From: Bacteroides stercorirosoris
GTDB lineage: Bacteria; Bacteroidota; Bacteroidia; Bacteroidales; Bacteroidaceae
NCBI RefSeq assembly: GCF_900142015.1
Contig: NZ_FQZN01000018.1
Location: 1-64,000 of the forward strand
Length of the DNA stretch: 64,000 nt
Direction: 5' to 3'
The position numbers were made by a program, and so were the translations under genes. The notes under the pieces were generated by a model. That model made no database searches and was not told where the DNA came from. It worked only from the letters and a program-made list of their open reading frames with translations. How positions within the stretch are numbered: the stretch's first letter is position 1; each line of letters starts with the position of its first letter. This document shows positions 12,489-63,476 of this stretch, one piece after another.

Positions 12489-15077
12489 TTAAAATATCAT
12501 TAATATCATGAAACGGATACCACCTTTCTTTACTCCCGGAATATCGGTGTAGGTGAGGCGGCGGACATATTCGATGTGCAACAACTTGAAGATGTTGTAA
12601 ATGCCTACACTGGCTTCCAGGTAAGGAGTACTACCCATTACGTGACTGGTGGGCACACCGTCGCGCATCGGGAAGAGGAACAGTTCATCGTTGTGGCTCT
12701 TATACGGATTGTTCTTGTCGGTAAGTGTGCCGTACATACCGCGGATGCGGAACGTTTCACGCCATTTCAGCTTTTTCAGAAGCGGGATGCGATTGAAAAG
12801 CTTTCCGTTCATGTCATACGTCAGGGCAAGCGAGGCGTAACGGTCGTTCAGGAACTCCATGTTGTTGATAAGGCTGAATGACTCGTTGTGCTGGGTGATG
12901 TATGACAGGTTCGCCATAGGCAGGTTCAGCAAGGGGAACGGTACGGTGTTCCACTGCGCACCGGCACGGGCGGTGATGTCCAGTTTACCCCATGAGCCGA
13001 ACCAGAAGCGTTTGCGGATGCTGGCTTCGGTGAGGTTGAAGTTATATTCGCCGCCCAGCACACCTTTCAGACCGATGGTGTGGGAGAGGGAGAATATCGG
13101 AGCATCCAACGATACGGGCACACGGCGTTGCTTGGTGTTTACGTACGTTTCACCGGGGGCGTAACGCAGGGTGACACCCAGCTCGGTGGTGGTGATGTCC
13201 TTGATGAAAGTATTTGTATCATCCCATGAACCGGCAATATTACCGTCATTTTTCCAATATTGCAGTACACCTCCGGCAGGTTCGTCATTGCGGTGGCGGG
13301 CCATGGCTTTGATGGAGAAACCGGCATTGGTTTCCAGTTCATAGGTCAGGGTAGCATCGCGCATATACGACATTTGGTCTACTTTGGTCCACTTCCAGCC
13401 GACGAACATATTATCCTTGTCGGTAGAGAGATACTTGTCCATAGGAGACATGACGTCGTAGCTGTAATCGAAGGCAATATAGTGTTTGGGGAATTCCCAC
13501 AACACATATTCACGTTTGTTGAATGAGTAGGCGGCCTGTCCTTTGTAGAACCATTTCTTGTCCTTTGTACCGTAAGCGCCGTAACCGCTGAAGCTCCAGT
13601 GAGGGTCGAGGTTACCGGTGGTCATACCGCTGAGACGGAAACGGGTACCGTTCACAAAGTTGCTTGTGATGGTGGTATTGATGGGACCGAAGTCAAACTT
13701 ACTTGGATGCTTTTTGGTTCCGGTCTCCACGAAGTTCTCAATCAGGGCTTTTGCGCCGAAAATGACGTATTTGAAGCCGGGAATCTGTTCGATGCGGTTC
13801 ATGAACACATCCATGTTGCTCTCTTTCTTGGTGAGGGGAACCTGGCGGACTTGCGCCCAGTATTCATCGCTCTTGTTGAGCATGTTGGCTTCTTTGATAA
13901 CGTTTCCTTTCAGGCGGAAAAGCCGTTGCTCTATCTCATCGAACTTGTAATCACTGTATTTTGTGGTACGTTGCACTTCAAGACCTTGCAAGCCTTTTAC
14001 GAATTGCAGTTCCACGGTCATATCGTCGTCGGTCAGTACCCAGTTGCCGTCCGGCATCTGTTCGAATTGCTGCACGATGTCGAGGTTGTCTACGAAGTTG
14101 ACCCCTGTCTTCTTGGGCAGGTTCATGGTACACTTCTTTACGGCGTAGGTGGAATCCTTCACTACGTAGAGGTGTCCCGTGAAACCGAAGTCCTGCGAAT
14201 TTTGCGGGACGAAAGTGAGGTGTACACATTCCTGGCGGTCTACCATGATGGTATCCATGAGGTAGTATTTGTAGAAACTGATGGCACCGCGTCCAATGGG
14301 GCTGACGAAACGGCGTTGTAACAGGCGGATGTCGTCATCGTAGATGTTGACGTCGGAGAAGACATCGGTGAGGATGGTTCCCAGCATGTCGCCGGTATTG
14401 AAAAATTCTTCGATACCGCTGGAGTTCATACCTTCGATGATAGTCTTCTCGCTCTTGGGACTCTTGCGATAGATGGTGCGGGAGGCCGTCTCCTTGATGG
14501 AGATGGGGAGAATCATCTTGTTGGTCTTGGGAGATACTTCCACCTGGTCTTTGAAGAATGAGAATTTCTTGTAGATGCCTTTCTCCATCTTTTCAGGAGT
14601 GACGTCGTTCATGGACATCTTCATCTTCTCATACTTCTTATACTCGTAGTAATCATTGGTTTCCAGCTTCAGTTGCTTCTTGTTTTCAATGACTTTCTTC
14701 ATGAACTCCACGGCAGGGTTGTTCTTGCGGGAGTATTTCTCTTTCTGTGGTTTCACCACTACTTCCGAGAGCATGACGTCGGCAGGCGCCATTTTCACGT
14801 TCAGCACTTTGGTGGTGGGTTGCAACCTGACCTTTTTGGTCACATATCCTATGGCCGAGAATGTAAGCTCATTCCAGCCTTTGCGGGTTTCTACTACGTA
14901 TTCTCCCTCGGCATTGGTGATGGCACCCACGCCTTTCCCTTCGTATTGAACGGTGATGTACATTAACGGTTCGTTGGTCAGGGAGTCCGTAACGACGCCT
15001 TTTATCTGTGCGGATGCGCTGTGCGCGACGAGTAATGACAACAGAAAAAGGATAAAAGTTATATATCGTTGTTTCAT
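12489..15077 (-). CDS. DUF5686 outer-membrane protein with carboxypeptidase-like regulatory domain
   Basis: An 862-aa exported protein. The signal peptide ends HSASAQ, followed by a carboxypeptidase-D-like beta sandwich (about residues 23-105, GVVTDSLTNEPLMYITVQY) and a long region rich in alternating aromatic strands ending in RFMILMIF, compatible with an outer-membrane barrel. The pattern matches the Bacteroidetes DUF5686 family; function unknown. The start at 15077 is preferred to an in-frame ATG at 15110 because the -7 promoter box (15099-15106) lies between them. First gene of the minus operon leading to rarA. Confidence 0.85.
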   Translation of the reverse strand: MKQRYITFILFLLSLLVAHSASAQIKGVVTDSLTNEPLMYITVQYEGKGVGAITNAEGEYVVETRKGWNELTFSAIGYVTKKVRLQPTTKVLNVKMAPADVMLSEVVVKPQKEKYSRKNNPAVEFMKKVIENKKQLKLETNDYYEYKKYEKMKMSMNDVTPEKMEKGIYKKFSFFKDQVEVSPKTNKMILPISIKETASRTIYRKSPKSEKTIIEGMNSSGIEEFFNTGDMLGTILTDVFSDVNIYDDDIRLLQRRFVSPIGRGAISFYKYYLMDTIMVDRQECVHLTFVPQNSQDFGFTGHLYVVKDSTYAVKKCTMNLPKKTGVNFVDNLDIVQQFEQMPDGNWVLTDDDMTVELQFVKGLQGLEVQRTTKYSDYKFDEIEQRLFRLKGNVIKEANMLNKSDEYWAQVRQVPLTKKESNMDVFMNRIEQIPGFKYVIFGAKALIENFVETGTKKHPSKFDFGPINTTITSNFVNGTRFRLSGMTTGNLDPHWSFSGYGAYGTKDKKWFYKGQAAYSFNKREYVLWEFPKHYIAFDYSYDVMSPMDKYLSTDKDNMFVGWKWTKVDQMSYMRDATLTYELETNAGFSIKAMARHRNDEPAGGVLQYWKNDGNIAGSWDDTNTFIKDITTTELGVTLRYAPGETYVNTKQRRVPVSLDAPIFSLSHTIGLKGVLGGEYNFNLTEASIRKRFWFGSWGKLDITARAGAQWNTVPFPLLNLPMANLSYITQHNESFSLINNMEFLNDRYASLALTYDMNGKLFNRIPLLKKLKWRETFRIRGMYGTLTDKNNPYKSHNDELFLFPMRDGVPTSHVMGSTPYLEASVGIYNIFKLLHIEYVRRLTYTDIPGVKKGGIRFMILMIF

Positions 15078-49647: not shown

Positions 49648-50032
49648 AGTGATAAATGTTACTTATGGGAGGACCTTGCATTCTAAGATTATAAGTATGA
49701 GGCCCTGATACATACTTATAATCAGAAGTTCTTCTATGGAATGCGGTTCTACTTTTGACAAACTTACGAAAAATCTATGGAATAACCTCGAAAAACGGGA
49801 GAAATGACGCTAAACGACTTAACATCAGAGTCGTTACGCTGTCAAATGATGACAAGCCGAAAAAACGGAAAACGCAATTAAAAGCGGATTTAAGAAGAAG
49901 AATGGTTTGCAAATCATTACCCGTGAAAGAGTAAGATTTAACACATGAGAGATGCTATTGCACCGTTTGTCACTGATTTGCGTATCAAGGTCTAATTCGT
50001 TGATATTTAACTTTGCAAACAAAAAAGCGAGT
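49648..50032. other. Left boundary region of the accessory island, non-coding
   Basis: 385 bp with no credible gene. It holds a 13-bp perfect inverted repeat (GATTATAAGTATG, 49687-49699, with 49711-49723), a TACTTTTG box (49750-49757), a candidate end word ACCTCGAAAAACGGG (49785-49799), a small AACGACT/AGTCGTT hairpin near 49815-49835, and the integrase promoter. Confidence 0.7.
50008..50015 (+). promoter_or_regulatory. Promoter -7 box of the integrase gene
   Basis: TAACTTTG 18 nt before the ATG at 50033. Confidence 0.55.
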
Positions 50033-51253
50033 ATGGCAAGAAGTACATTCAAAGTGCTGTTCTATGTGAACGGCAGCAAGGAGAAAGACGGTATTGTCCC
50101 CATCATGGGACGAGTGACAATCAACGGAACTGTGGCGCAGTTCAGTTGCAAGCAGAGCATCCCGAAGACCCTTTGGGATGCGAAAGGCAACCGAGCCAAA
50201 GGCAAGAGTGCCGAAGCACGGAACATCAATCAGACTTTGGATAACATCAAGGCGCAAATCATCAAACATTATCAGCGCATATCCGACCGTGAGACGTTCG
50301 TGACGGCAGAAATGGTGCGCAATGCCTATCAAGGGATAGGAAGCGAGTATGAGACACTGATAAAGGCTTTCGACAAGGATTGCGCCAACTTCCTGAAACG
50401 TGTGGGGAAAGACCGCAGCATTGGCACATACAAAGTCATGGTAAGAGCAAGGAACTATGTCGCAGCCTTTATCAAGTCGTTCTACAAACGGACGGACATG
50501 TCCATGTTGGAGCTTACGCCCGACTTCATCAAGGAGTTTGCTGCTTATCTTACAGCTGAACGGGGTCTGAAAAACGCCACCATATGGCTGAACTGCATGT
50601 GGCTGAAAGGCGTAGTTATGCGTGCGCACTATAACGGACTGATACCGAGGAATCCGTTTGCGCAGTTCCATATCAGCCCGAATGTTAAGGAACGGGAATA
50701 TCTGACAGAGGACGAAATCAAAAGAATCATGGCGCACGAGTTTGACAACCACACCCTCGCATTGGTGCGAGACCTGTTTATTTTCGCCTGTTTCACCGCC
50801 TTGTCTTTCGTGGATATGAAAGAACTCACAACGGACGAAATAGTGGAAGTGAACGGTGAGAAATGGATATTGTCGAAACGGTACAAGACGAATGTCCCGT
50901 TCCAAGTGAAGCTGCTTGATATTCCCTTGCAGATAATTGAACGGTACAGACACCTGTCGGAAGACAAGCTGGTTTTCGGAAAAATCAACTATTGGACGAT
51001 GTGCAAACAGCTGAAAAAGGTAATGGCGGAATGCGGAATAGAGAAGCAAATCTCCTATCATTGCGCAAGGCATACATTTGGAACGCTGGCTCTTAGTAAG
51101 GGGATGCCCATTGAAAGCGTGAGCCGTGTTCTGGGACACACGAACATTGTCACGACTCAAATCTATGCGAAGATAACCACGCAGAAACTTGACAATGACC
51201 TGACGATGTTCGGCAACAAGCTGAACGCATCATTTGGAAGTGTAACCCCATAA
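50033..51253 (+). CDS. Tyrosine recombinase (integrase), IntDOT-like
   Basis: A 406-aa site-specific recombinase. Arm-binding domain at about 1-90 (STFKVLFYVNGSKEKDG), SAM-like core-binding domain about 105-205, catalytic domain about 215-395. Catalytic residues: His-x-x-Arg in YHCARHTFG, His in LGHTNIVTTQ and the nucleophile Tyr in IYAKI. The position of Arg I reads FTALSFVD, Ser258 in place of Arg, as in the CTnDOT integrase. The start at 50033 follows the promoter box. First gene of the element. Confidence 0.93.
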   Translation: MARSTFKVLFYVNGSKEKDGIVPIMGRVTINGTVAQFSCKQSIPKTLWDAKGNRAKGKSAEARNINQTLDNIKAQIIKHYQRISDRETFVTAEMVRNAYQGIGSEYETLIKAFDKDCANFLKRVGKDRSIGTYKVMVRARNYVAAFIKSFYKRTDMSMLELTPDFIKEFAAYLTAERGLKNATIWLNCMWLKGVVMRAHYNGLIPRNPFAQFHISPNVKEREYLTEDEIKRIMAHEFDNHTLALVRDLFIFACFTALSFVDMKELTTDEIVEVNGEKWILSKRYKTNVPFQVKLLDIPLQIIERYRHLSEDKLVFGKINYWTMCKQLKKVMAECGIEKQISYHCARHTFGTLALSKGMPIESVSRVLGHTNIVTTQIYAKITTQKLDNDLTMFGNKLNASFGSVTP

Positions 51254-51265
51254 CCAAGCGGAGCC

Positions 51266-51442
51266 ATGAAACGAAGCATCATCACAACGGACGGTAACGG
51301 CAACATTATCATGCCGACCGATATTAGTGCAACCGCCATGAGCGAATGGGAACTTTGTGAACTGTTCGGAGTAACCGCTCCGACATTCGCTTTTCGGGAG
51401 TTTTTCCATTTGTACAACCCACCTCCTGCCCCAAACCATTGA
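51266..51442 (+). pseudogene. Truncated HTH (excisionase/regulator-like) gene
   Basis: A 58-codon frame beginning MKRSIITTDGNGNIIMPTD with the helix-turn-helix start EWELCELFGVTAPTF. It then runs into FREFFHLYNPPPAPNH and stops. Relatives in Bacteroides elements continue the recognition helix and are about twice as long (from memory of the family, not checked). Twelve bp after the integrase. Probably a remnant left by a deletion. Confidence 0.5.
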
Positions 51443-51515
51443 AAGTTTTTGTTTCGGGGGCTATTTGTCACCATTCTGCTGTATTTTGCATAACAACCTG
51501 TCCAATAATTGATTA

Positions 51516-51523
51516 TATTTTTG
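51516..51523 (+). promoter_or_regulatory. Promoter -7 box of the helicase gene
   Basis: TATTTTTG 36 nt before the ATG at 51559. Confidence 0.5.
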
Positions 51524-51558
51524 CGGCTGGTGATTTTCAAACTTAAAACCATTTGATT

Positions 51559-52788
51559 ATGTCAGCTATCGAACAACAGGGCAGCCACAGACCGCCATCG
51601 GATGGCGGCATGGCAAAGGAAGAATTTATCCGTGTCGGGACAACGCTCTACAAGATTGTGGAGCAACCGAGACTGAACGGAGGGTATGTGAAGAAACGCA
51701 TCGCATGGAACAACGAGACCCTGCGCCAAGACTACGGCAAGGATTACATCGGCAGCGTTCCCAAGTATGACGGCTTCTGCACCGTACCCGAACACATCGG
51801 CTACCGTTCCGTGGTCGGCAAGTTCCTTAACCTCTACGAACCGATATACCACCGACCGCAGGAGGGCGATTTATCGCATATCCAATCTTTGGTACGGCAC
51901 ATCTTCGGGGAACAATACGAGTTGGGGATGGACTATCTGCAACTGCTCTACCTGCAACCGATTCAGAAGTTGCCTATCCTGCTGTTAGTGTCGGAAGAAC
52001 GCAACACGGGCAAAAGCACCTTCCTGAACTTTCTGAAGGCCCTTTTCCAGAACAACGTGACTTTCAATACCAACGAGGATTTCCGCAGCCAGTTCAATTC
52101 CGACTGGGCAGGCAAGCTCCTTATCGTGATGGATGAGGTGTTGCTCAACCGCAGGGAGGACAGCGAACGGTTGAAGAATCTTAGCACTACATTATCCTAC
52201 AAGGTGGAAGGCAAAGACCGTGACGAGATTGCGTTCTTCGCCAAATTCGTGTTGTGCTCCAACAACGAGCATCTACCCGTAATCATAGACGCAGGGGAAA
52301 CACGCTATTGGGTGCGCAAGATAGACCGCTTGCAGTCCGATAATACCGACTTCCTGCAAAAGCTGAAAGCGGAGATACCCGCCTTTCTCCATTTCCTGCA
52401 ACACAGAAAACTGTCCACTGAAAAGGAAAGCCGGATGTGGTTCAACCCCACATTGCTGCATACAGAAGCCTTGCAGAAGATTATCCGCAGCAACCGCAAT
52501 CGGCTGGAGATAGAGATGTCGGAACTGCTGCTCGACATTATGGTTGCAATGGATGTGGATAGCGTTTCATTCTGCCTTAACGACCTTGTCGTACTGCTGA
52601 TGCACTCGCAGGTAAAGGCAGAAAAACATCAAGTGCGTAAGGTGGTGCAGGAGTGCTGGAAACTGATACCTGCACCAAACGGGCTTACCTACACCACCTA
52701 TCAGGGCAATTACAACAGAAGTTGTCACTATGAGCCAGCCGATAAGGAGGGTGGGACGCTTCTACACTGTCACACGGGAACAACTTGA
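51559..52788 (+). CDS. SF3/D5-type primase-helicase protein of the mobile element
   Basis: A 409-aa protein with an AAA-like SF3 helicase core. Walker A VSEERNTGKSTFLNFL, Walker B KLLIVMDEVLLNRRE and a sensor Asn in FVLCSNNEHLPV, followed by the arginine-rich ETRYWVRKIDR. The N-terminal 110 residues and the C-terminal winged-helix-like part (about 330-400) have no firm family. With the Toprim primase downstream it probably starts replication of the excised circle. Homologues are labelled primase-helicase family protein. Confidence 0.83.
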   Translation: MSAIEQQGSHRPPSDGGMAKEEFIRVGTTLYKIVEQPRLNGGYVKKRIAWNNETLRQDYGKDYIGSVPKYDGFCTVPEHIGYRSVVGKFLNLYEPIYHRPQEGDLSHIQSLVRHIFGEQYELGMDYLQLLYLQPIQKLPILLLVSEERNTGKSTFLNFLKALFQNNVTFNTNEDFRSQFNSDWAGKLLIVMDEVLLNRREDSERLKNLSTTLSYKVEGKDRDEIAFFAKFVLCSNNEHLPVIIDAGETRYWVRKIDRLQSDNTDFLQKLKAEIPAFLHFLQHRKLSTEKESRMWFNPTLLHTEALQKIIRSNRNRLEIEMSELLLDIMVAMDVDSVSFCLNDLVVLLMHSQVKAEKHQVRKVVQECWKLIPAPNGLTYTTYQGNYNRSCHYEPADKEGGTLLHCHTGTT

Positions 52789-52871
52789 ATCCTTGTAACA
52801 CTTTTTTCTGTTGAATTGTTGAATATGGGTATAAATGCAATGACAATAAACGATATACATTCTCAACAAAA

Positions 52872-52950
52872 TCTCAACAAGCCAAAAGAGAAGTTGAGAG
52901 ACCACCGACACCCGTTTTGGATTTCTCTTTTGGCGAGTGGTTTGTTGAGA
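52872..52950. repeat. Stem-loop and TCAACA-rich region between helicase and primase genes, origin candidate
   Basis: Outer arms TCTCAACAA/TTGTTGAGA and inner perfect 12-bp arms GCCAAAAGAGAA/TTCTCTTTTGGC around a 30-nt loop. TCAACA or its complement recurs at least eight times from 52860 to 53035. The 256-bp spacer has no gene. Confidence 0.65.
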
Positions 52951-53044
52951 AGATGTTGAGAGTTTATAGGTCTGTATATAAACATATTACATCAACAGTT
53001 CATCAAATCAACAAATTTTCATCAACTTCAAAACCGCATGTAAT

Positions 53045-54016
53045 ATGACAATCCAAGATGTAAAGCAAATCAAACTGACAGACTATCTGCAAAGTCTGGG
53101 CTATACGCCTGTAAAACAACAAGGCAAGAACCTGTGGTATAATTCACCGCTACGGGAAGAAACGGACGCATCGTTCAAGGTAAACACCGAGCTTGAAAAA
53201 TGGTACGACTTCGGCATCGGCAAAGGCGGAAACATCATCGCATTGGCAGCGGAACTCTACCGCTCGGAAGATGTAGTCTATCTGTTGAAACGCATAGAGG
53301 AGCGGACACCCTACATCCGTCCTGCATCGTTCTCTTTTGGCAGGCAGCATTCCGACAATCGGACTTATCAGGGGTTAAGGGTTGGTGAGTTGTCCTCTGC
53401 TGCTCTCATCGCCTATCTGCAAGAAAGGGGGATAAATATCGGACTTGCCAAAAGAGAATGCAGGGAACTTCGGTTTATGAATGCCGACAAGTCCTATTTC
53501 GCCATCGGCTTTCCGAACATGGCAGGAGGATATGAAGTGCGCAACAGATACTTCAAGGGATGTGTAGCCCCGAAGGATATCTCCCATATCCGACAGAAAG
53601 GTGAACAACGACGTATGTGTTATCTGTTTGAGGGGTTCATGGATTACCTTTCATTCCTTACCATCCGAGTGGGGAACAATCCGCAATACCCACGATTGGA
53701 CACGCAGGACTATGTCATACTGAACTCCGTTTCCAATCTTGCGAAAGCGGAAAGCATATTGGAGACCTACACCCAAATCGGCTGTTTCCTTGACAACGAC
53801 ACGGCAGGACGGAACACCTGCAAGAAGCTGAAAGAGAAGTTCGGGGAACGGCTGCTTGACAAGTCGCTGTACTATCGTGGGTATAAGGACTTGAACGACT
53901 ACCTGTGCGGTAAGCCCTTGTCACAATCGGCAGAGCCGATAAAGGAGAAAAAGCAAGTCCAATCCGCAAGGCGGGTGATGCAGCCATCGAAAAAGAAAAG
54001 GGGATTTCATCTGTAA
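53045..54016 (+). CDS. Toprim-domain DNA primase of the mobile element
   Basis: A 323-aa primase. The N-terminal segment (about 1-80, LWYNSPLREETDASFKV, WYDFGIGKGGNIIALAAEL) is the CHC2/DnaG-like zinc-domain fold without the Cys/His ligands. The Toprim domain (about 195-290) has CYLFEGFMDYLSF (Glu) and IGCFLDNDTAGRNTC (DxD). The basic C terminus KKKRGFHL may bind DNA. Counterpart of the primases in NBU-type elements. Confidence 0.88.
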   Translation: MTIQDVKQIKLTDYLQSLGYTPVKQQGKNLWYNSPLREETDASFKVNTELEKWYDFGIGKGGNIIALAAELYRSEDVVYLLKRIEERTPYIRPASFSFGRQHSDNRTYQGLRVGELSSAALIAYLQERGINIGLAKRECRELRFMNADKSYFAIGFPNMAGGYEVRNRYFKGCVAPKDISHIRQKGEQRRMCYLFEGFMDYLSFLTIRVGNNPQYPRLDTQDYVILNSVSNLAKAESILETYTQIGCFLDNDTAGRNTCKKLKEKFGERLLDKSLYYRGYKDLNDYLCGKPLSQSAEPIKEKKQVQSARRVMQPSKKKRGFHL

Positions 54017-54065
54017 TATGCACGTTCGCTTTCCCAAAGGTATTTAGACAAAAATACCATAATTT

Positions 54066-54114
54066 ATAGGGCGTTTTCTTCACGCATTACTCCGTAACGC
54101 TAAAAACACCCTAT
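54066..54114. repeat. oriT-like inverted repeat upstream of the relaxase (1)
   Basis: ATAGGGCGTTTT (54066-54077) and AAAACACCCTAT (54103-54114), 12-bp arms with one wobble, enclosing GCGTT/AACGC. Position just before a relaxase gene is where oriT is usually found. Confidence 0.6.
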
Positions 54115-54118
54115 CGAG

Positions 54119-54138
54119 CCAAAGGGAAATCCCTTTGG
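54119..54138. repeat. oriT-like inverted repeat upstream of the relaxase (2)
   Basis: CCAAAGGG, AAAT, CCCTTTGG: perfect 8-bp hairpin 4 nt after the previous repeat. Confidence 0.6.
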
Positions 54139-54205
54139 AAACCCTGTGAACCAATGCCACAGGCAGAGAGAAGAAGCATAACAATAACCGCAAAATAGCA
54201 ATAAT

Positions 54206-55512
54206 ATGGGATATTTTTCATTAGACATAAAGAAAGCAAAGGGTACATCGGACACCACGCAGTCCGACCATATAGAAAGAAAGATAATACCTAAAAACGC
54301 AGACCCGACAAGAACACATCTGAACAGGATGCTTGTCGAATACCCCGATGGCGTTCACGGCAGGGATGAAGCGATTGCCCATAGGCTGAACACGGCAGGC
54401 ATCAAACGGAAAATCACACACGACCAAGTCCGTGTTGTCCGGATGGTATTGTCGGGTACGCACGAGGACATGATGAACATACAGGAAAAAGGAAAGCTCG
54501 ATGAATGGTGCAGCGACAGCATCCAATGGCTACAAGCCACATTCGGCAAAGACAATGTGGTTGCCGCACATTTGCACATGGACGAGAAGACTCCGCACAT
54601 CCACGCAGCCGTTGTTCCTATCGTGACGGGTGAAAGGCGCAAAGCCAAGAAAGAACAGACGGACGGTAAGCGCAAGTACCGCAAGAAAACAAATTCCGTC
54701 CTTTTGTGTGCTGATGACCTGTTCAACCGACAGACCCTGATTGCCTACCACGACAATTACGCAAGGGTGATGGCGAAATACGGATTGCAACGTGGGGTAC
54801 GGGGCTCGGAAGCACGGCACACTACCACCATGCAGTATTATCGGGACTTGAAAAAGAAGAATGAAACCCTTGAAACCGAAACCAGACTGTTGCAGGAGAA
54901 AAAAGCCGAAGCGCAGGAGGAACTGAACAGGTAAAAGCAGAAATCCGCACCGACAAGCTCAAAAGCGCAGCCACCGATACGGCAACCGCCCTTGCGAGCA
55001 GTGTGGGTTCTCTTTTCGGAAGTGGACAAATGAAATCGTTGGAACGCAGGAACGAGGACTTGCAAGACCGCATACTTGAACTTGAAGACGGAGCCCGACA
55101 ACGGGAACGGCAACAAGCCGAACAGATACAGGAGATAAGAAACGCTTACGAACAACAGCACCGCAAGCTGTCGGAGTTTACGGATTTTGTCAGACGCTAC
55201 TTTCCGTATGTGGAGAAGCTGATGCCGACTATCAAGTTCCTGCGTGATACGCTGAACTTTGGCGATGCCATTATTCGAAAGTTATGTATGTTCAAGGATG
55301 TTTCCATCAAAGGCGAACTCTATTCTTGCGAGTTCAACCAGCATTTTAAGGCTGACAAAACGGTATGCTCACTTAAACAGGACACAGAGGGAAAATACAA
55401 TCTCTACATAGATGGCGTTTCACATGTCAGTTGGTTCAGACGAAAGAAAGAGGAGTTTATGGAGAAGTTGGGAGCACAAGCAAGAAAGCAAAACAGAGGT
55501 ATTAAGCTGTAA
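54206..55512 (+). pseudogene. MobV-family relaxase, interrupted by a one-base frameshift
   Basis: First part 54206-54934 (242 codons): MobV/Pre relaxase domain with HLHMDEKTPHIH (residues 122-133, the HxDExxPHxH metal motif) and RKYRKKTNSV. It stops at TAA 54932-54934 right after LLQEKKAEAQEELNR. Reading one frame back from 54931 continues as VKAEIRTDKLKSAATD and runs to 55512 (coiled coil, then a C-terminal domain ending KQNRGIKL), the expected rest of a protein of about 435 aa. One missing G in a G-run explains the break. The relaxase domain itself is complete, so residual activity cannot be excluded. Confidence 0.88.
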
Positions 55513-55517
55513 ATCAT

Positions 55518-55562
55518 AAAAAAAGTCCGTGATAGTAGAATATTACATCACGGATTTTTTTG
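55518..55562 (+). terminator. Rho-independent terminator after the relaxase gene
   Basis: Stem TCCGTGAT/ATCACGGA extended by A/T pairing with a one-base bulge, then T7. Confidence 0.88.
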
Positions 55563-55611
55563 TACTTTTGTGTTGCTTATAACATCATCGGTAATATAAT
55601 TTGCAATACAT

Positions 55612-57045
55612 ATGGAAAAAATAAATGAAACTCACATCTTAGTTTTGAAAGAACATAATGGTATTTTTCAAGTTGCTTCAATACCAATAGACGATAGTTT
55701 TTTTATAATTAACGAAATAAAAGCTTCGGTAGATAATCCCAATAAAACATTGCTGGATGTGCAGTCTGAATTTCTCAATAACTTTCAAAGCATAAATAAT
55801 GCTTATGGATATCTTTATCCGTATGCATATAGCTCTTCTTATGTGTCGGGAGCAATAAAACCGAAAAAATATACATATGCTGAGTATAAAACAGAGTTAG
55901 ATAATAGAGTGAAAAACAAAGTTATAGGTGAGAATATAAATATAGATAAAATTATAGAGGATGAAAATAGAATCCTCAAACAGAGTTATGCTTCATTGTG
56001 TACTCGTTACATTAAACAACAGATGTTATATAAGGCATTCCAAAACGCAGCAAATGATTCCTCCTGTAAGATGTACTCTCGCGAGTTAATAGGATGGAGC
56101 AGTTTTGATTATGCAATAACTGATGATATAAAAGTTTGTATTTATACTAACTTAGGATTTGGATATGCAAGTTATTTTACTTTATCCATATCTTATAAAG
56201 ATATTATAATAGCACCATTTTCACATATAGCAAAGTATTATAATGCTTGTATGACAGATATTATTCGTTGTACTAGAGATTATTATGTAGAAAAAGACAA
56301 CTGGTATCCAATGTTTGAGCTTGTTAAGGATTTTGTAAATCATTCTTTAGAAGACCCCAAATCCTTTGTTGAAAGCTATATTATGAATGAAATAGACGAA
56401 ATGATAAGATGTCTTAGAAATATCATGGCTAATCCATTTGCTATTATCAATATGTTCAAAAATCAGAACAATAACTTAGATTATCATCGTCTTAGATTTA
56501 TCAATCCTATGTCTAATGATGAAAAACAACTATATAGTGTATATCCTATAGAAATGCCAACAATTTTTAAGAGTGAAAAATTGTCACAGGCGGTGAATAC
56601 TTTAAAGCGTCTTGAAGAATTGCAAAAAATTCATTCTCAAATAAACGTATATATTGAAGAAATATTAAATATGATTATTGAGCTAAGCCCAGAAATAGAT
56701 AAAACAATTAAATCTATTCAAGTAGATATTGAAAGATTGGTGGTTCAAAAGAAGCCTAAGGAAGAACTTGCAGAATCCTTGCAAACTCAAATAGACGGGT
56801 TCGTTTCAGAACTAAATAACGAATTAGAAAAACTGCCCAAAGACGCTGATTGGAAAAGAAAGGAAGATGTGCGTAAACAATTTGAAGAAAGGCATCCTAT
56901 ATACATAGATACTAAAAACAGATTGCAAGAAGTAAAAGATGAAATTTATGAAATAAACAAAAAAATATATTCAAGAAAGTCTCTTGTAGAGAGATTGTTT
57001 AATAGCAATAATAATTTAGCACCTTATATGGCTAGTGCCGTTTAA
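55612..57045 (+). CDS. Unknown AT-rich cargo protein of the mobilizable element
   Basis: A 477-aa protein with no recognized domain. Residues 1-320 are Tyr/Asn/Ile-rich and look globular without signal or membrane segments. Residues about 325-460 are strongly helical and charged (KRLEELQKIHSQINVY, PKEELAESLQTQIDGF), a likely coiled coil. Base composition is much more AT-rich than the neighbouring mobilization genes, a sign of separate origin. It stands alone behind the relaxase terminator at the element's right end, the usual cargo position. A defence or host-interaction role is possible but unproved. Confidence 0.7.
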   Translation: MEKINETHILVLKEHNGIFQVASIPIDDSFFIINEIKASVDNPNKTLLDVQSEFLNNFQSINNAYGYLYPYAYSSSYVSGAIKPKKYTYAEYKTELDNRVKNKVIGENINIDKIIEDENRILKQSYASLCTRYIKQQMLYKAFQNAANDSSCKMYSRELIGWSSFDYAITDDIKVCIYTNLGFGYASYFTLSISYKDIIIAPFSHIAKYYNACMTDIIRCTRDYYVEKDNWYPMFELVKDFVNHSLEDPKSFVESYIMNEIDEMIRCLRNIMANPFAIINMFKNQNNNLDYHRLRFINPMSNDEKQLYSVYPIEMPTIFKSEKLSQAVNTLKRLEELQKIHSQINVYIEEILNMIIELSPEIDKTIKSIQVDIERLVVQKKPKEELAESLQTQIDGFVSELNNELEKLPKDADWKRKEDVRKQFEERHPIYIDTKNRLQEVKDEIYEINKKIYSRKSLVERLFNSNNNLAPYMASAV

Positions 57046-57373
57046 TCACTTTCAAAGTCAAAAAAATTACTAATTCTGCGGAGTTAACCTGCGGGGATGT
57101 AAATACTAAAAAAAAGTAATTCTTTGGTGTTTGCGTCCCAATTCACTATTTTTGTACACCAATCGAGTTATTTGAAACGCAATTTAAGGCAGAACGCAGC
57201 AAATAGTACAGTTGCCAAGTCGTTACCTCAAAAACGGGTAATTCTCCCAAAGTCCTTTGTATAAGGTACTAACGAAAGTTTTCCAAAATTACTGAAAAAC
57301 TTCTAAAGTCTGTCCATTTCGTCTGAAAAAGAGAGAGGATCAGAAACCATTTTCTCATAACGATAAGAATACG
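57046..57373. other. Right boundary region of the mobilizable element, non-coding
   Basis: 328 bp without a gene. Contains AGTCGTTACCTC, AAAAACGGG (57218-57238), resembling words near the left end (49785-49840). Otherwise nothing recognized. Confidence 0.6.
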
Positions 57374-57411
57374 TATCTTTGCAGCATGAGTGAAGATACC
57401 TACAAAACCAT
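57374..57411 (+). repeat. 38-bp direct repeat, copy 1 (yigZ promoter and first codons)
   Basis: Matches 61360-61397 at 37 of 38 positions. Contains the -7 box TATCTTTG, the ATG and the first eight codons of yigZ. It marks the left end of the acetyltransferase-to-SpeD module. Confidence 0.92.
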
Positions 57412-57472
57412 CATTTATCCGCAACAATCCTCCCGATACCGAAAAATAAAAGAAATGAAGTATGAAAACTGA
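57386..57472 (+). pseudogene. yigZ 5' remnant fused to foreign sequence (28 codons)
   Basis: Begins MSEDTYKTI exactly like yigZ (61372), then diverges to IYPQQSSRYRKIKEMKYEN and stops. It overlaps the acetyltransferase start by 11 bp. Driven by the duplicated -7 box, it could act as a leader peptide that couples translation into the acquired gene. Confidence 0.75.
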
Positions 57473-58061
57473 ATATCAAAAATGTATGGATGGTGAACCT
57501 TTTGACGGTTCATCTCCGGAATTGGTTGAACTGACATTACAGACCAAAAGACTGCTTCGCCAACTAAGAGAAACTGACTATGCCGACGATGAAGCTAAAA
57601 AGGCTATTTATAAGCTGCTGTTCGGAAGCATAGGTAATCAAGTTTCGATTGATATTGACTTTCGATGTGAATATGGAAAGAATATCCACATCGGCAATCA
57701 GGTTATTATCAATATGAACTGCACATTCTTGGATAACGGAGCCATAAATATAGGCGACAATGTGATGATTGCTCCGGATGTGAAAATCTACACGGCGACT
57801 CATTCTGTGGTCTTTTCGGAACGTATGCCTGTCCGCTCCAATCCGAAGGCGTCGGTTTGCGACACCATTGCCTGTCCGGTCACTATTGAAAGCGGAGTAT
57901 GGATTGGCGGAGGGGCTGTCATTCTTCCGGGTGTGACTGTCGGAAGAAATTCTGTCATTGGGGCAGGAAGCGTTGTCACCAAGTCAATACCTGCGAACAG
58001 TATTGCTGTTGGTAATCCGTGTCGTGTCATAAAAAGTATTGATAATGAAAAAACGTTGTGA
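57462..58061 (+). CDS. Sugar O-acetyltransferase, maltose/galactoside transacetylase-like (left-handed beta-helix)
   Basis: A 199-aa LbH acetyltransferase. The N-terminal Mac domain (MDGEPFDGSSPELVELTLQTK) is followed by hexapeptide repeats (IHIGNQVIINMNCTFLDNG; VTIESGVWIGGGAVILPGV) and the catalytic His in YTATHSV. It transfers acetyl from acetyl-CoA to a sugar hydroxyl. Its stop overlaps the start of the HAD gene (TGATG), so the two are coupled. Expression may come from the captured yigZ promoter at 57374. Confidence 0.92.
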   Translation: MKTEYQKCMDGEPFDGSSPELVELTLQTKRLLRQLRETDYADDEAKKAIYKLLFGSIGNQVSIDIDFRCEYGKNIHIGNQVIINMNCTFLDNGAINIGDNVMIAPDVKIYTATHSVVFSERMPVRSNPKASVCDTIACPVTIESGVWIGGGAVILPGVTVGRNSVIGAGSVVTKSIPANSIAVGNPCRVIKSIDNEKTL

Positions 58062-58684
58062 TGCCGATGATAAAGAATCTTGTTTTCGACTTCGGGAAAG
58101 TCCTTGTAAACCATGACTTACACGCTGTTCTTGAACGTTATTTCAAGGGAGATAAAGAGACAGAGGAATGTTTTTGCACTATTTTGGCCTCACCCGCATT
58201 TACCCAAGCCTGCGACCTCGGTCTTGTTCCATTTGGTGAATTGATAAGGAAAGCACAGTTCGAACATCCTCAGTTTGCTGGCGCTTTCCGGTTCTTTTAT
58301 GAAAATTATCTGGATGAGGTGACGGGAGAAATAGAAGGAATGCGGGAAGTGTTGGTCTGCTACAAATCGAAAGGTTTCAAACTCTACGGACTGAGCAATT
58401 GGAGTGATGTGATTTATGAAGTGATGCGTCAATATGAAATTTTTAATTTGTTGGATGGACGGGTCATATCGTGCGAGGAGCATATTGTCAAGCCCGAAAA
58501 GGAAATCTATCTGCGTTTGTGCGAACGTTATGGCCTTGAACCCTCAGAGTGTCTGTTCACTGATGACAGAATGGAAAATGTAGAGGGTGCGAAGGCTGCC
58601 GGAATGGAAGCTGTCCTTTTCACTACTGTGGCAGACTATGCAAAAGATTTGGAAAAACTTCTAAAGGCCCTGCAGCATTTGTAG
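58061..58684 (+). CDS. HAD-superfamily phosphatase (YihX-like)
   Basis: A 207-aa hydrolase. HAD motif I VFDFGKVLVNHD (Asp nucleophile; the second Asp is replaced by Gly), motif II YGLSNWSD, motif III Lys in IVKPEKEIY and motif IV CLFTDDRMENV. A helical cap lies at about 20-85. Related proteins dephosphorylate sugar phosphates. ATG at 58061 overlaps the acetyltransferase stop. Confidence 0.88.
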   Translation: MPMIKNLVFDFGKVLVNHDLHAVLERYFKGDKETEECFCTILASPAFTQACDLGLVPFGELIRKAQFEHPQFAGAFRFFYENYLDEVTGEIEGMREVLVCYKSKGFKLYGLSNWSDVIYEVMRQYEIFNLLDGRVISCEEHIVKPEKEIYLRLCERYGLEPSECLFTDDRMENVEGAKAAGMEAVLFTTVADYAKDLEKLLKALQHL

Positions 58685-58770: not shown

Positions 58771-58793
58771 TATCAGGATTAATATTGTTTTAT

Positions 58794-59624
58794 ATGCAAA
58801 ACTTAGCTTCTATACAGAAAGAAAACTGTAGAACGGGTATAACGAACCTACAGGATTTATCACCGTTTATTCCGGACGGGTGCACGTTGCTCCTTTGTAC
58901 GGAAGGCAAAGCGGTTATTTCCACAAATACGCGGAAAAGGACGTTCTGCAAAGGCGATTTGCTACTATTGTTCTCTGATATATTGTTTACTCCGTTAAAG
59001 GTTTCCGCTACCTTTTCTGCGGAATATATTTATTTGTCACAGGTTCTGATGGAAGAAATTTTTTATAAAATGACCTCAGCCGAATTTTGGGCATGCGTGT
59101 ACAACTATCCTGTTTGCCATTTGTTGGCAGAACAATATAGCATTGTGCAAGGTCTGTTTATGCAGATGCAATGGGCGCTGAAGAACTGTAATGATACTTG
59201 TCAGAAAACAATCTTGCAAAACTGTGCATATAATTTATTTCTTGGCATAGATACCGAATACAAGTCGGCATTGCCCTCGTTGATGCAGAATATTAGGAAA
59301 GACAGGGCTTGGATGCTATTCGGCAAGTTCATGTCGTTTCTTATTAAACATGGTTGTGAAAGAAGGGACGTGAAATTCTATGCAGACAGACTTTGTATCA
59401 CTACAGACTATCTTTATAAAGTATGCAATAAGGTGGAGCAACGGACTCCCAAAGAGATTATTGACACATTTATCATCACGGAAATCAAAAGATACCTGAA
59501 CAATACCAATCTGTCCATCGCTGATTTGGCTGTCTGCTTTCACTTTGAAGATTCGTCCTATTTATGCCGCTTCTTTCGCCGTATGACAGGATATTCCATT
59601 TCCGGATATCGTAACCGGACTTGA
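58794..59624 (+). CDS. AraC-family transcriptional regulator
   Basis: A 276-aa regulator. The N-terminal cupin-like sensor domain (about 1-160) is followed by a C-terminal AraC double HTH (about 180-276): FYADRLCITTDYLYKVCNKV for the first HTH and LSIADLAVCFHFEDSSYLCRFFRRM for the second. It ends 4 bp from the stop of the convergent BpsA-SpeD gene, making that gene or the acetyltransferase operon its likely target (inference). Confidence 0.9.
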   Translation: MQNLASIQKENCRTGITNLQDLSPFIPDGCTLLLCTEGKAVISTNTRKRTFCKGDLLLLFSDILFTPLKVSATFSAEYIYLSQVLMEEIFYKMTSAEFWACVYNYPVCHLLAEQYSIVQGLFMQMQWALKNCNDTCQKTILQNCAYNLFLGIDTEYKSALPSLMQNIRKDRAWMLFGKFMSFLIKHGCERRDVKFYADRLCITTDYLYKVCNKVEQRTPKEIIDTFIITEIKRYLNNTNLSIADLAVCFHFEDSSYLCRFFRRMTGYSISGYRNRT

Positions 59625-59628
59625 CGAT

Positions 59629-61167
59629 TTATGTACTTTTCGAGCCTCTCATCAAGTCACTGTACTCTACATTGCCACATTCCAGCTGTTTTTGCAAATA
59701 ATCGAAAGCCGTCCACGGATTGACATTTGTTCCGCAAGTAAACAAGTCAACAGCGGCATAACGGCATTCCGGCCATGTATGTATGGTCAGATGAGATTCT
59801 TGGATGACGACAACACCACTCACTCCTATAGGATCGTACTTGTGGAAACTTTCTTGCACAATTGTTGCCCCGGCTTTTACTGCTGCTTCATGCATGCAGA
59901 CTTGTATCTGTTCCACATCATCAAGTTTGTCGCCGCCACAATCATAGAAGTCTGCAAGAATGTGATGTCCTAAAGGAAGATGTTGCCGGATAATCGCATT
60001 TTTCTTTTTATGCTGGCGGTAGAAGATTCGGCATCCGCAAGCCGGGCAGCCATGCTCTTTCAATGTTTTAATTGTCAGGAAATCGCTATCATTGCCTACT
60101 GTATATGATTGTCCGCATTGTTTGCAACGATAGAGGTTTTGTTTCGGATGCCTGTCTGCCGTATAAATATCGCTGCGGCTTTTCTTCTCAGCCGGAAATA
60201 AAGCCCTGGTACGGTCTGTCGTTTCCAATACAAAGAGTTGTCCTTTGTTTCCTAATAGTGATGCTCCTTCATATTCATTGAACTGCGCAAGAATATCCTT
60301 GATGGACAAACCGTGGAGTTGAAAGCATTTTTGCAATAAATAACTTTCGTCTGTAGGCCTGTTTCCAAATGAAAAGAAAATCTTCAATCCACGTTCTTCT
60401 TTCAATGTGCTGATGGCGCGGGACAAAAACAGCGAAGCTCCTTCTTGTGTATAAGGCGGGTCTGTGAACAAGCAATCAAAACGTCCTGATAAATGCACAG
60501 GGAAAGGTAAACGCAAGTCTATTTGTTCACAATTTATGGGCAAAGCACATTGTTTCGCTTGTTGTTGCAAATACTCAATATAGCGTTTGTCCACATCAAG
60601 CACAAGGATATCCGTCGGATAGGTATCTCTGGCAGGGAAAAGCTCTTTCAATAAAAAACCGATAGCAAGGCAGACGAAATCATCGTCACCAAGGCAAAGT
60701 ATATGTTTGCCGATCAGTGTACCGTAAGTCAGACAAAGTAAGGCACGGCGGAATGCTGTCTGAACTGTACATTGGGCTTGATCAAGGGTTACATCTACCG
60801 ATGGACGGCTGTTGAATGCTGTCCGGTATTTTTCGCTCAGCCAATTCACATACCTTTCTTTTGCTTCTTCACTTTTCATCAATTGATGATATAGGCAACG
60901 GTTGATACCTTCATATCCAAGTATCTGTTCAACGTATTTCCGTCCTGCAATAGTCAATTCCATTCCACCTTTGCATTGTTCCCATACACCCAACCTGATA
61001 CCCTCTTTTTTCAGGGCTGTTACCAATGGTATGGGTAGCGTTGTTCTTTGAGATAGTGTTTTATTCGAGAGTGGAGCATCAAAGTAAAGCTCCTGAAAAA
61101 CTTTTTCAATAATTCCTCGTCCTTCTTTGATTGAACTACCTCTATGTATATCTTCTATATAATCCAT
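59629..61167 (-). CDS. Fusion of BpsA-type aminopropyltransferase with S-adenosylmethionine decarboxylase (SpeD)
   Basis: A 512-aa polyamine enzyme with two activities. A winged-helix-like N terminus (about 1-75) precedes an aminopropyltransferase of the branched-chain polyamine synthase (BpsA/DUF43) type: GDDD at 160-163, LDVDKRY (190-196) and TDPPYT (235-240). A zinc ribbon follows (Cys348, 351, 374, 377). Residues 397-512 are a complete class 1b AdoMet decarboxylase: pyruvoyl Ser458 in QESHLTIHTWPE, proton-donor His463 and Cys478 in LFTCG, with spacing identical to the Thermotoga enzyme. The decarboxylase would make decarboxylated SAM and the transferase would move its aminopropyl group to a polyamine. 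Start at 61167 because the -7 box (61198-61205) excludes the ATG at 61200. Whether linear or branched products form is unknown. Confidence 0.87.
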   Translation of the reverse strand: MDYIEDIHRGSSIKEGRGIIEKVFQELYFDAPLSNKTLSQRTTLPIPLVTALKKEGIRLGVWEQCKGGMELTIAGRKYVEQILGYEGINRCLYHQLMKSEEAKERYVNWLSEKYRTAFNSRPSVDVTLDQAQCTVQTAFRRALLCLTYGTLIGKHILCLGDDDFVCLAIGFLLKELFPARDTYPTDILVLDVDKRYIEYLQQQAKQCALPINCEQIDLRLPFPVHLSGRFDCLFTDPPYTQEGASLFLSRAISTLKEERGLKIFFSFGNRPTDESYLLQKCFQLHGLSIKDILAQFNEYEGASLLGNKGQLFVLETTDRTRALFPAEKKSRSDIYTADRHPKQNLYRCKQCGQSYTVGNDSDFLTIKTLKEHGCPACGCRIFYRQHKKKNAIIRQHLPLGHHILADFYDCGGDKLDDVEQIQVCMHEAAVKAGATIVQESFHKYDPIGVSGVVVIQESHLTIHTWPECRYAAVDLFTCGTNVNPWTAFDYLQKQLECGNVEYSDLMRGSKST

Positions 61168-61197: not shown

Positions 61198-61205
61198 CAA
61201 AGATA
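61198..61205 (-). promoter_or_regulatory. Promoter -7 box of the BpsA-SpeD gene
   Basis: TATCTTTG on the minus strand, 30 nt before the ATG at 61167; no clear -33. Confidence 0.6.
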
Positions 61206-61337
61206 GGTTGTATTTATTCCTTCTCTAATACCCGATTTCGGCAGTTTTGGGTACTTTTCAATACTTATTTGGGCATTTAAGTCCAATCAAAGCATTTTTA
61301 ATAGGTTATTTTAAAGTAAAAAGAAGAAAATTGCCGA

Positions 61338-61367
61338 TTGCAGGGCTATAAAGAATTGTTATCTTTG
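61338..61367 (+). promoter_or_regulatory. Promoter of yigZ, predicting a leaderless transcript
   Basis: TTG (61338-61340), 19 nt, TATCTTTG (61360-61367), then CACC and the ATG. The box-to-ATG distance of 4 nt equals that of the aspartate-dehydrogenase-like gene. Confidence 0.65.
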
Positions 61368-61397
61368 CACCATGAGTGAAGATACCTACAAAACCAT
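61360..61397 (+). repeat. 38-bp direct repeat, copy 2
   Basis: Second copy of the sequence at 57374-57411 (one mismatch), here in its intact context at the 5' end of yigZ. Confidence 0.92.
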
Positions 61398-62348: not shown

Positions 62349-63476
62349 ATGGCATTCGAAGCAACAAAGCGTGAGTTGGGCGAACTCTACACATTCTTTC
62401 GCCTGTTGGCAGACGGAAAGGTTTCATTGGGCACACCGCAAGTCCGGAAGGATGAAGCAAAGTGCTGGCCCATTGCGATGGTACAAAGGGAAGAGCATGA
62501 CGGCACGCGCCGTTATTATATAGAACAGGAAAATATCCGTATCGTCAGCGGGACGGTGGAGAAAACGGGGACGTTTACTGTGGCTGGCAAGGAAGAACAG
62601 AACATTCCCCGCGAAGACTTTGGCGGGGCGGCAGAGATTATACTTGAATTGCTGAAAACGACTGCCGGTTCTGATACGATTGAAGTTCCTGAAGGTCTGG
62701 AAGGTTTTCTGGATGCCATCAATGTCTACGATTTGGAGGCGAAGACGGAAGACCGCACGGATTTCTCTGTTGCCTTCTGGCACGCTGAAGCACCGTTGAC
62801 GGGATTTAATGTCCGTTGCCGCCTCAGTTCGATGAACCCGTTGCTGGATGGCGGACGCACGGCAAACCTGAAACTGGAACAGTCGGGCATCAAGTTTGCT
62901 ACGCCTACGGTGAACAAGGTGAATGCTTTGCCGGAATCTCCGACGGAGGTTACGGAACGTATGCTGATGATTGAGCGTCTGGGCGGAGTGCTGAAATATT
63001 CGGATGTGGCGGACCGTGTGTTCCGTTGCAACCTGCTGATGATTGATTTACACTTCCCCCGTATGTTGGCGGAGATGGTGCGCATGATGCACCTCGACGG
63101 CATTTCCCGTGTCAGCGAACTGACGGAGTGTATCAAAGAGATAAATCCCCTGAAGATAAAAGATGAACTGATAAACAAACATGGTTTCTATGAGTTTAAG
63201 ATGAAACAGTTCTTGTTGGCACTTGCTTTGGGCATGCGTCCGGCAAAGATATATAACGGTACGGACTCAGCCGTAGAAGGCATTCTGCTGGTAAATGCGG
63301 AAGGGGAGGTGCTTTGTTATCATAAATCGGAGCGCCAGGTATTTGTCGATTTCTTATATCAGAACACCCGTTTTGAGAAAGGCTCGGTAGATAAGGATAA
63401 GTACGGTTTCCTTGAAAAAGAGAACGGTGTGTATTATTTCAGACTGAATGTAAAGATTGGGTTGACAAAAAAATAA
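62349..63476 (+). CDS. HpaII-family restriction endonuclease-like protein
   Basis: A 375-aa cytoplasmic protein. The N terminus (RELGELYTFFRLLADGKVSLGTPQ) and the C terminus (DKYGFLEKENGVYYFRLNVKIGL) follow the layout of the HpaII endonuclease family, which cuts CCGG. Length is close to the 358 aa of HpaII. No methyltransferase gene is next to it in this window. Its stop overlaps the ATG of the nitroreductase gene (TAATG). Family call is by pattern memory; catalytic residues cannot be pointed out. Confidence 0.65.
   Translation: MAFEATKRELGELYTFFRLLADGKVSLGTPQVRKDEAKCWPIAMVQREEHDGTRRYYIEQENIRIVSGTVEKTGTFTVAGKEEQNIPREDFGGAAEIILELLKTTAGSDTIEVPEGLEGFLDAINVYDLEAKTEDRTDFSVAFWHAEAPLTGFNVRCRLSSMNPLLDGGRTANLKLEQSGIKFATPTVNKVNALPESPTEVTERMLMIERLGGVLKYSDVADRVFRCNLLMIDLHFPRMLAEMVRMMHLDGISRVSELTECIKEINPLKIKDELINKHGFYEFKMKQFLLALALGMRPAKIYNGTDSAVEGILLVNAEGEVLCYHKSERQVFVDFLYQNTRFEKGSVDKDKYGFLEKENGVYYFRLNVKIGLTKK

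Follow-up and report, generated by a model that had tools for sequence, protein, structure and literature searches.

Results

The fusion gene and its domains

The window (the whole stretch of DNA analysed, 64,000 nucleotides from Bacteroides stercorirosoris, contig NZ_FQZN01000018.1) carries on its minus strand a gene at 59629–61167 (ATG at 61167, stop codon at 59629–59631) for a 512-residue protein, uninterrupted by stops, in which a BpsA-like aminopropyltransferase is fused to an AdoMet decarboxylase (SpeD). The N-terminal region (residues 1–110, 60838–61167), of which residues 43–110 align with the N-terminal part of Pyrococcus and Thermococcus BpsA, leads into a BpsA_C catalytic domain (residues 111–302, 60262–60837) with the motifs GDDD (160–163), TDPPY (235–239, extending to TDPPYT at 240) and FNEY (296–299). 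These are followed by a Cys4 motif (C348, C351, C374 and C377; 60037–60126), which is probably a zinc ribbon, and by a class 1b AdoMet decarboxylase domain (residues 402–508, 59644–59964) with predicted self-cleavage before Ser458 (codon 59794–59796). The initial annotation had placed GDDD, TDPPYT, the Cys4 motif and an intact SpeD with Ser458, His463 and Cys478 in one frame, and all of them were found there.

Both halves were recognised in the profile searches proposed earlier for DUF43/BpsA and SpeD. Pfam BpsA_C matched residues 111–302 with 127.5 bits (cut-off 27, E 6.7e-37), and AdoMet_dc (PF02675) matched residues 402–508 over profile positions 1–107 of 107 with 135.6 bits (cut-off 25, E 1e-39). 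NCBIfam TIGR03330 (adenosylmethionine decarboxylase) was covered from position 3 to 112 of 112 with 139.1 bits (cut-off 75.65), while PF01564 (SpeE) had no match in the protein. A search of PDB sequences returned AdoMetDC of Thermotoga maritima (6.6e-37), BpsA of Pyrococcus (5.9e-21) and of Thermococcus (3.1e-19), and also a Thermus BpsA chain. Given the Pfam, NCBIfam and PDB matches, the domains are not due to chance. An origin of the frame by chance or by an assembly join is ruled out by full-length homologues elsewhere (69 % identity) and by a dN/dS of about 0.08. The gene encodes a real, selected and mobile two-domain enzyme. A single-sequence structure model had a mean pLDDT of 39 and was left out of all conclusions.

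The SpeD half

Ser458, His463 and Cys478 align with T. maritima SpeD and with the SpeD domains of SpeD-SpeE fusions; we take Ser458 to be the processing serine and His463 and Cys478 to be catalytic. The active-site row ESHLxIHTWPE, followed by D-T/S-C, is common to the fusion and to the SpeD domains of frames of SpeD-SpeE size, with which the SpeD domain of the fusion is 50–55 % identical. Two of these frames (L004 and L081) are identified by Pfam as SpeD-SpeE fusions. In a tree of SpeD sequences 18 of the 33 inner branches were open and branches were long, which allows a weak placement only. As judged from its sequence, the SpeD half is a complete class 1b AdoMet decarboxylase. It shares with class 1b SpeD (TIGR03330; T. 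maritima 1tlu/1vr7) the entire domain, the processing serine and the catalytic histidine and cysteine, but forms the C-terminal part of a larger chain. Because of this C-terminal position the BpsA half would remain on the beta chain after cleavage.

Two genomes of the genus encode divergent small SpeD-like proteins (L037 and L038) with the row ESHISIHTYPE, and their genes adjoin frames that by eye resemble membrane proteins. They may represent relatives of SpeD with a role other than polyamine synthesis.

The BpsA-like half compared with true BpsA

The fusion shares with BpsA (PF01861; PDB 5xnc and 6j27) the core at residues 111–302, GDDD, the aspartate of TDPP, FNxY, and an N-terminal region that can be aligned. 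The PDB entries 5xnc and 6j27 are named N4-bis(aminopropyl)spermidine synthase, and 2qm3 is named predicted methyltransferase. In the phmmer alignment with Tk-BpsA (5xnc), GDDD of the fusion corresponds to Gly157–Asp160, so that D162 and D163 match Asp159 and Asp160. By our own matching from this alignment, with a chain offset of 20 residues, Asp225 corresponds to D236 and Tyr290 to Y299; in our reading P271 is the counterpart of Glu259, and the aligned part does not include Tyr316. According to the accessible part of a recent review (PMC12979288), Asp159 and Asp160 position the aminopropyl group, and Glu339, Asp342, Asp343, Glu344 and Glu345 are reported to carry it.

The designation BpsA-type in the initial annotation holds at the level of the superfamily (BpsA_C, 127.5 bits), but we do not extend it to BpsA proper with its reported ping-pong chemistry. 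The match covers profile positions 3–186 of 243, leaving the last ~55 positions unmatched, whereas the full-length BpsAs L048 and L045 cover positions 2–243 and 2–242, and the other full-length matches 1–242 to 4–242. The acidic carrier tail is absent, with at most two acidic residues in any seven-residue window of residues 300–398; the last 15 residues of the fusion itself contain two. Ten of the 11 full-length BpsAs of Bacteroidota end in a short acidic tail (e.g. DEEAATT; three to five acidic residues in the last 15), and in the eleventh (L106) a stop truncates the sequence. As these two tested features, profile coverage and carrier tail, fail, we do not claim the fusion as BpsA proper. Further differences are the added Cys4 motif and SpeD domain, TDPPYT in place of the TDPPET or TDPTES found in all 11 full-length BpsAs (of which five read GDDD and six GAEDD), and the mesophilic gut host. 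The fusion also seems to fall outside the clade of full-length BpsAs: in a tree of 17 domain sequences the 11 BpsAs were separated from the fusion and a Nonomuraea sequence with a support of 93/89, which is below the firm-support mark of the tool, on long branches.

The Nonomuraea protein (L054) and two others (L051 and L072) resemble the fusion in their truncated BpsA_C match, and L054 also has TDPPYT in common with it, along with some of the sequence that follows FNxY. However, they read GDHD (L054) or GDGD (L051 and L072) at the GDDD site, and SpeD was not found in their frames. TDPPYT resembles the motif of amino-methyltransferases, and the N6-adenineMlase profile scored 22.1 bits on the fusion (cut-off 23.2).

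In a survey of the class, 11 of 395 genomes had a BpsA_C match above the cut-off: five near-full-length BpsAs, the fusion of the window and five partial low scorers (27–32 bits). Among 14 control genomes the profile matched only in Thermus composti and Methanocaldococcus jannaschii.

Four cysteines (C348, C351, C374 and C377) lie between residues 303 and 398, where full-length BpsAs instead continue to the acidic tail. They are invariant in four aligned copies (three distinct sequences), but the zinc-binding profiles matched this region only below their cut-offs; the motif proposed earlier as a zinc ribbon is thus conserved, and its assignment is probable.

Upstream motif and AraC-type regulator

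On the minus strand, 30 nt before the ATG, the sequence TATCTTTG (61198–61205) resembles the Bacteroides −7 promoter element, which we take to be TAnnTTTG, and aligns with TATTTTTG in the copies L053 and L033. Further upstream lies the 17-bp motif GTATTGAAAAGTACCCA (61248–61264, minus strand), a candidate operator that is identical upstream of every fetched fusion copy and forms the left edge of the conserved module. It occurs exactly in 16 of the 144 fetched loci, all of which hold the start of the fusion; the remaining 128 lack an exact match. The 16 loci are overlapping stretches of six sources: the window's genome (G000), G435, G416, G530, G783 and MT839461.1. With three mismatches allowed, its chance expectation in the window is 0.18.

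An AraC-type regulator gene (58785–59624, plus strand) is convergent with the fusion, and its product is 59 % identical to the AraC protein encoded beside the 69 % homologue. DNA similarity of the window to the other copies (BLAST) begins within the AraC gene at 58921 and ends at 61206. Based on this span, the identical GTATTGAAAAGTACCCA and the 59 % identical AraC proteins, the conserved unit as read from sequence comparison consists of the motif, the promoter, the fusion and the convergent regulator. The AraC protein would be the regulator that controls the fusion.

The island and its insertion site

The fusion and the AraC gene lie on a 3,986-bp island at the start of a yigZ/IMPACT gene, together with a hexapeptide acetyltransferase (57462–58061) and a HAD hydrolase (58058–58684), both on the plus strand (57462–58684 in all). 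The two passengers are also present in L003; among the conjugative-element stretches fetched, none matched their DNA. No integrase was seen in the 3,986 bp. Sequence comparison revealed 47-bp direct repeats on the plus strand at both ends: the left one (57365–57411) is a copy of the yigZ/IMPACT 5' end, and the right one (61351–61397), 91.5 % identical to it, is the 5' end of the intact gene, as the empty sites also indicate. The repeat includes the yigZ/IMPACT promoter element TATCTTTG and the first codons, and since the island duplicates both, yigZ/IMPACT keeps a start. Among 119 genomes of the genus, only G000 and G435 had a second match to the repeat in this search.

Of eight loci compared, the window being one, five (L130–L134) represent the empty site, with a match to 49773–49776 beside glycerate kinase, then 57284 or 57295 to 57411, and then IMPACT (from 61351 on); L135 and L141 have the same order, less complete. 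This order implies two separate insertions at the locus. The proposed location of the fusion gene in accessory DNA of Bacteroides was thus borne out, the gene sitting on an island with empty sites in relatives.

Directly upstream of the island, at the same locus, lies an integrative mobilisable element (about 49777–57284) encoding a tyrosine integrase (49952–51253), a DUF5906 protein, a Toprim primase and a Mob_Pre relaxase. That the fusion is cargo of this neighbouring element was considered and is ruled out by the empty sites and L003, which point to two separate insertions; in G435 the 3,986-bp unit is present at this site and the integrase element is absent.

On the other side of the island a full-length homologue of the HpaII restriction endonuclease was found (62349–63476, 446 bits), lying between the gene for a CDGSH protein and a frame judged by eye to be nitroreductase-like. 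No methyltransferase gene was present in the adjoining frames. L130–L134 contain DNA of this stretch at the locus as well.

Relatives, spread and selection

The full-length fusion was found in 4 of 149 genomes of the genus (G000 and G435 at 100 %, G416 and G530 at 69 %), in 4 of 399 of the family (G000, G416, G530 and G783, the last from another genus), and in 1 of 393 of the order and 1 of 395 of the phylum, in both cases the window's own; the sampled sets overlap. Peptide patterns of the fusion itself, searched against the contigs of 84,980 species, retrieved the G435 copy alone, by a method that missed the 69 % copies. L003 is this G435 copy, present in a second collection. None of 72,556 plasmid records covered 80 % of the protein.

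In G416 the fusion adjoins conjugative-transfer genes (TraM, TraG-type), and G530 and G783 contain the same conjugative-element DNA, identical (100 %) across 14.6 to 18 kb. Such identity means that the DNA was transferred recently, once between genera. The G+C content is 42 % for the window copy and 51 % for the G416 copy. In the conjugative element of L052, repeats of ~390 bp (9228–9618 and 14420–14808, 88 % identical) bracket an AbiE pair, AraC and the fusion, which is another sign of a cassette.

A faecal scaffold filed as 'Bacteriophage sp.' (MT839461.1, L033) carries the fusion at 68.6 % identity. A phage gene was rejected as an explanation: this record, 'UNVERIFIED' and 4,269 bp long, is the sole full fusion in the phage collections, and it is 97 % identical to the G416 conjugative element over 2,761 bp. 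It seems to be a piece of a conjugative element from Bacteroidaceae. Six scans of IMG/VR yielded no full-length copy: four had no relative, one returned a SpeD-only relative (L144), and one returned 17 stretches with a motif, none with a BpsA-like frame (phmmer).

The fusion is under purifying selection and both ends of the protein are constrained. Compared with the 69 % copy, dN/dS (Nei-Gojobori) was 0.081 overall, 0.037 for SpeD, 0.19 for the N-terminal 105 residues and 0.17 for the ribbon; these are rough values, as synonymous sites are near or at saturation, and dS of the BpsA core was not computable. Identity between the copies is 82 % in SpeD and 72 % in the BpsA core.

Polyamine genes of the hosts

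The carboxyspermidine decarboxylase route makes spermidine without decarboxylated SAM (dcSAM). The gene for this decarboxylase, nspC, scored above the cut-off in G000, G416 and G530, i.e. in three of the four carriers searched, and in 1 of 14 control genomes; the fourth carrier, G435 (a 72 %-complete MAG), had a weaker relative only. The Sacchrp_dh_NADP domain expected of carboxyspermidine dehydrogenase had strong matches in G000, G416, G530 and G783, although the match is unspecific, with 13 of 14 controls positive. SpeE (PF01564) was found in none of the four genomes G000, G416, G530 and G435, and in 11 of the 14 controls. The assumption that the host Bacteroides uses the carboxyspermidine route agrees with these results, carboxyspermidine decarboxylase being present and SpeE absent in the window's genome.

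The fusion gene is the single AdoMet_dc match in G000, while G783 has a second, weak SpeD-like match (E 3.3e-4, 28 % identity). As the window's genome has neither SpeE nor another SpeD match, the SpeD half appears to be its sole source of dcSAM, and dcSAM appears to be new to this cell.

Discussion

We consider it probable, with reasonable confidence, that the fusion is a bifunctional, self-supplying aminopropyltransferase that acts on host spermidine with its own dcSAM, moved horizontally and linked to an AraC regulator. The SpeD domain would cleave itself before Ser458, leaving chains of 457 and 55 residues, to give a pyruvoyl group and would decarboxylate SAM; the BpsA-like domain of the same chain would then place the aminopropyl group of this dcSAM onto a polyamine, the dcSAM being handed over between the two domains. 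The likeliest acceptor would be host spermidine, as the host has carboxyspermidine decarboxylase and neither SpeE nor another SpeD match. A precedent also led us to choose spermidine: according to the available part of PMC11999265, in bacteria with hybrid CASDH/CASDC and AdoMetDC/APT pathways, SpeE-like aminopropyltransferases alongside the carboxyspermidine route make spermine. The group would likely go on the inner nitrogen and the product would most likely be a tetraamine, the family favouring N4-aminopropylspermidine over linear spermine or thermospermine; for a branched product among the polyamine products we see slightly better than even chances. The idea of a one-protein, SAM-dependent pathway in the initial annotation is retained in so far as SpeD and BpsA-family domains are in one chain, but has to be narrowed, as the host has to provide the acceptor polyamine.

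By alignment, the fusion keeps the residues that face dcSAM and is without the known carrier. With the former kept and the latter lost, either another residue would carry the aminopropyl group or the amine would attack dcSAM directly, as in the classical spermidine and spermine synthases (PMC12979288, in the part accessible). The missing tail, reported to carry the group in the ping-pong reaction of BpsA, also fits a linear aminopropyltransferase, which would make spermidine from putrescine, or spermine or thermospermine from spermidine, by direct displacement without an enzyme-bound intermediate. Fusions of SpeD with an aminopropyltransferase from Pelagibacter, as described in the available part of PMC11107197, make spermidine and spermine/thermospermine in E. 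coli. We nevertheless regard linear transfer as unlikely, since the catalytic core matches BpsA and not SpeE, and since a host with carboxyspermidine decarboxylase probably has spermidine already.

A self-supplying aminopropyltransferase could also transfer its group to an acceptor not previously associated with it. In the boldest version this would be a base of DNA or RNA, and a DPPY-type amino-transferase would then modify nucleic acid with the aminopropyl group supplied by SpeD. The DPPY motif, the near-threshold N6-adenineMlase match, the Cys4 motif, a weak similarity to the Mad2 defence methyltransferase (22.2 bits) and a distant plasmid homologue that adjoins an ATPase and a helicase are in line with this, as would be an N-terminus that we take to be winged-helix-like in BpsA. 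However, residues 43–110 align in true BpsA too, GDDD is kept, and the methyltransferase profile reaches 22.1 bits where BpsA_C reaches 127.5. AraC is the only gene common to the window and the conjugative contexts, a point qualified by the AbiE pair near the conjugative-element copies and the HpaII-type endonuclease gene near the window copy. On balance, we find such an acceptor improbable. Still less credit is given to a SpeD domain neofunctionalised to an ornithine or arginine decarboxylase and joined to an ordinary SAM methyltransferase: SpeD-derived ODC/ADC enzymes are widespread (PMC10407285, available part), but the TIGR03330 score (139.1 bits vs cut-off 75.65) and an active-site row that matches the one in spermidine synthase-linked SpeD domains speak for AdoMet decarboxylation. 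A decaying or non-expressed passenger gene, which the rarity of the fusion (only 4 of the 149 genomes of the genus have it in full length) could suggest, is very unlikely with a dN/dS of 0.081, constraint at both protein ends, and a conserved upstream motif and regulator.

The preferred reading, a self-supplying aminopropyltransferase acting on spermidine, has partial parallels. SpeD-SpeE fusions of Pelagibacter (PMC11107197, available part) and of Bacteroidota (L004 and L081) likewise have a single chain that both supplies dcSAM and transfers the aminopropyl group, but their SpeD is N-terminal and that of the present fusion C-terminal, and in L004 and L081 the partner is SpeE (PF01564) instead of a BpsA-like domain. 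Bacteroidota thus encode fusions with N-terminal SpeD, and besides the two Pfam-identified cases similar frames of 426–446 residues occur in the order and phylum sets. The hybrid spermine pathways (PMC11999265) also unite the carboxyspermidine route with dcSAM-dependent aminopropyl transfer in one cell, but their aminopropyltransferases are described as spermine synthases and BpsA is absent from the part of the text available. A BpsA-SpeD fusion was not found in searches of open-licence full-text literature, nor was it met in the accessible parts of PMC10407285, PMC11107197, PMC12979288, PMC11999265 and PMC9992855; it may have been published elsewhere.

The 2026 review portrays bpsA, in its accessible part, as a gene with a striking limitation to lineages of thermophiles, and links branched polyamines with high temperature (PMC12979288). 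A selected, mobile enzyme of the BpsA family in mesophilic gut Bacteroides would directly test this view, and raises the question of whether the acidic carrier tail is dispensable for a BpsA core. The fusion would bring its own dcSAM source to cells whose spermidine route runs without dcSAM, and would show how an aminopropyltransferase is made portable by carrying the maker of its own cosubstrate. If our reading is true, the cell may make polyamines that are otherwise out of its reach, and such enzymes may be a source of unusual polyamines in the gut.
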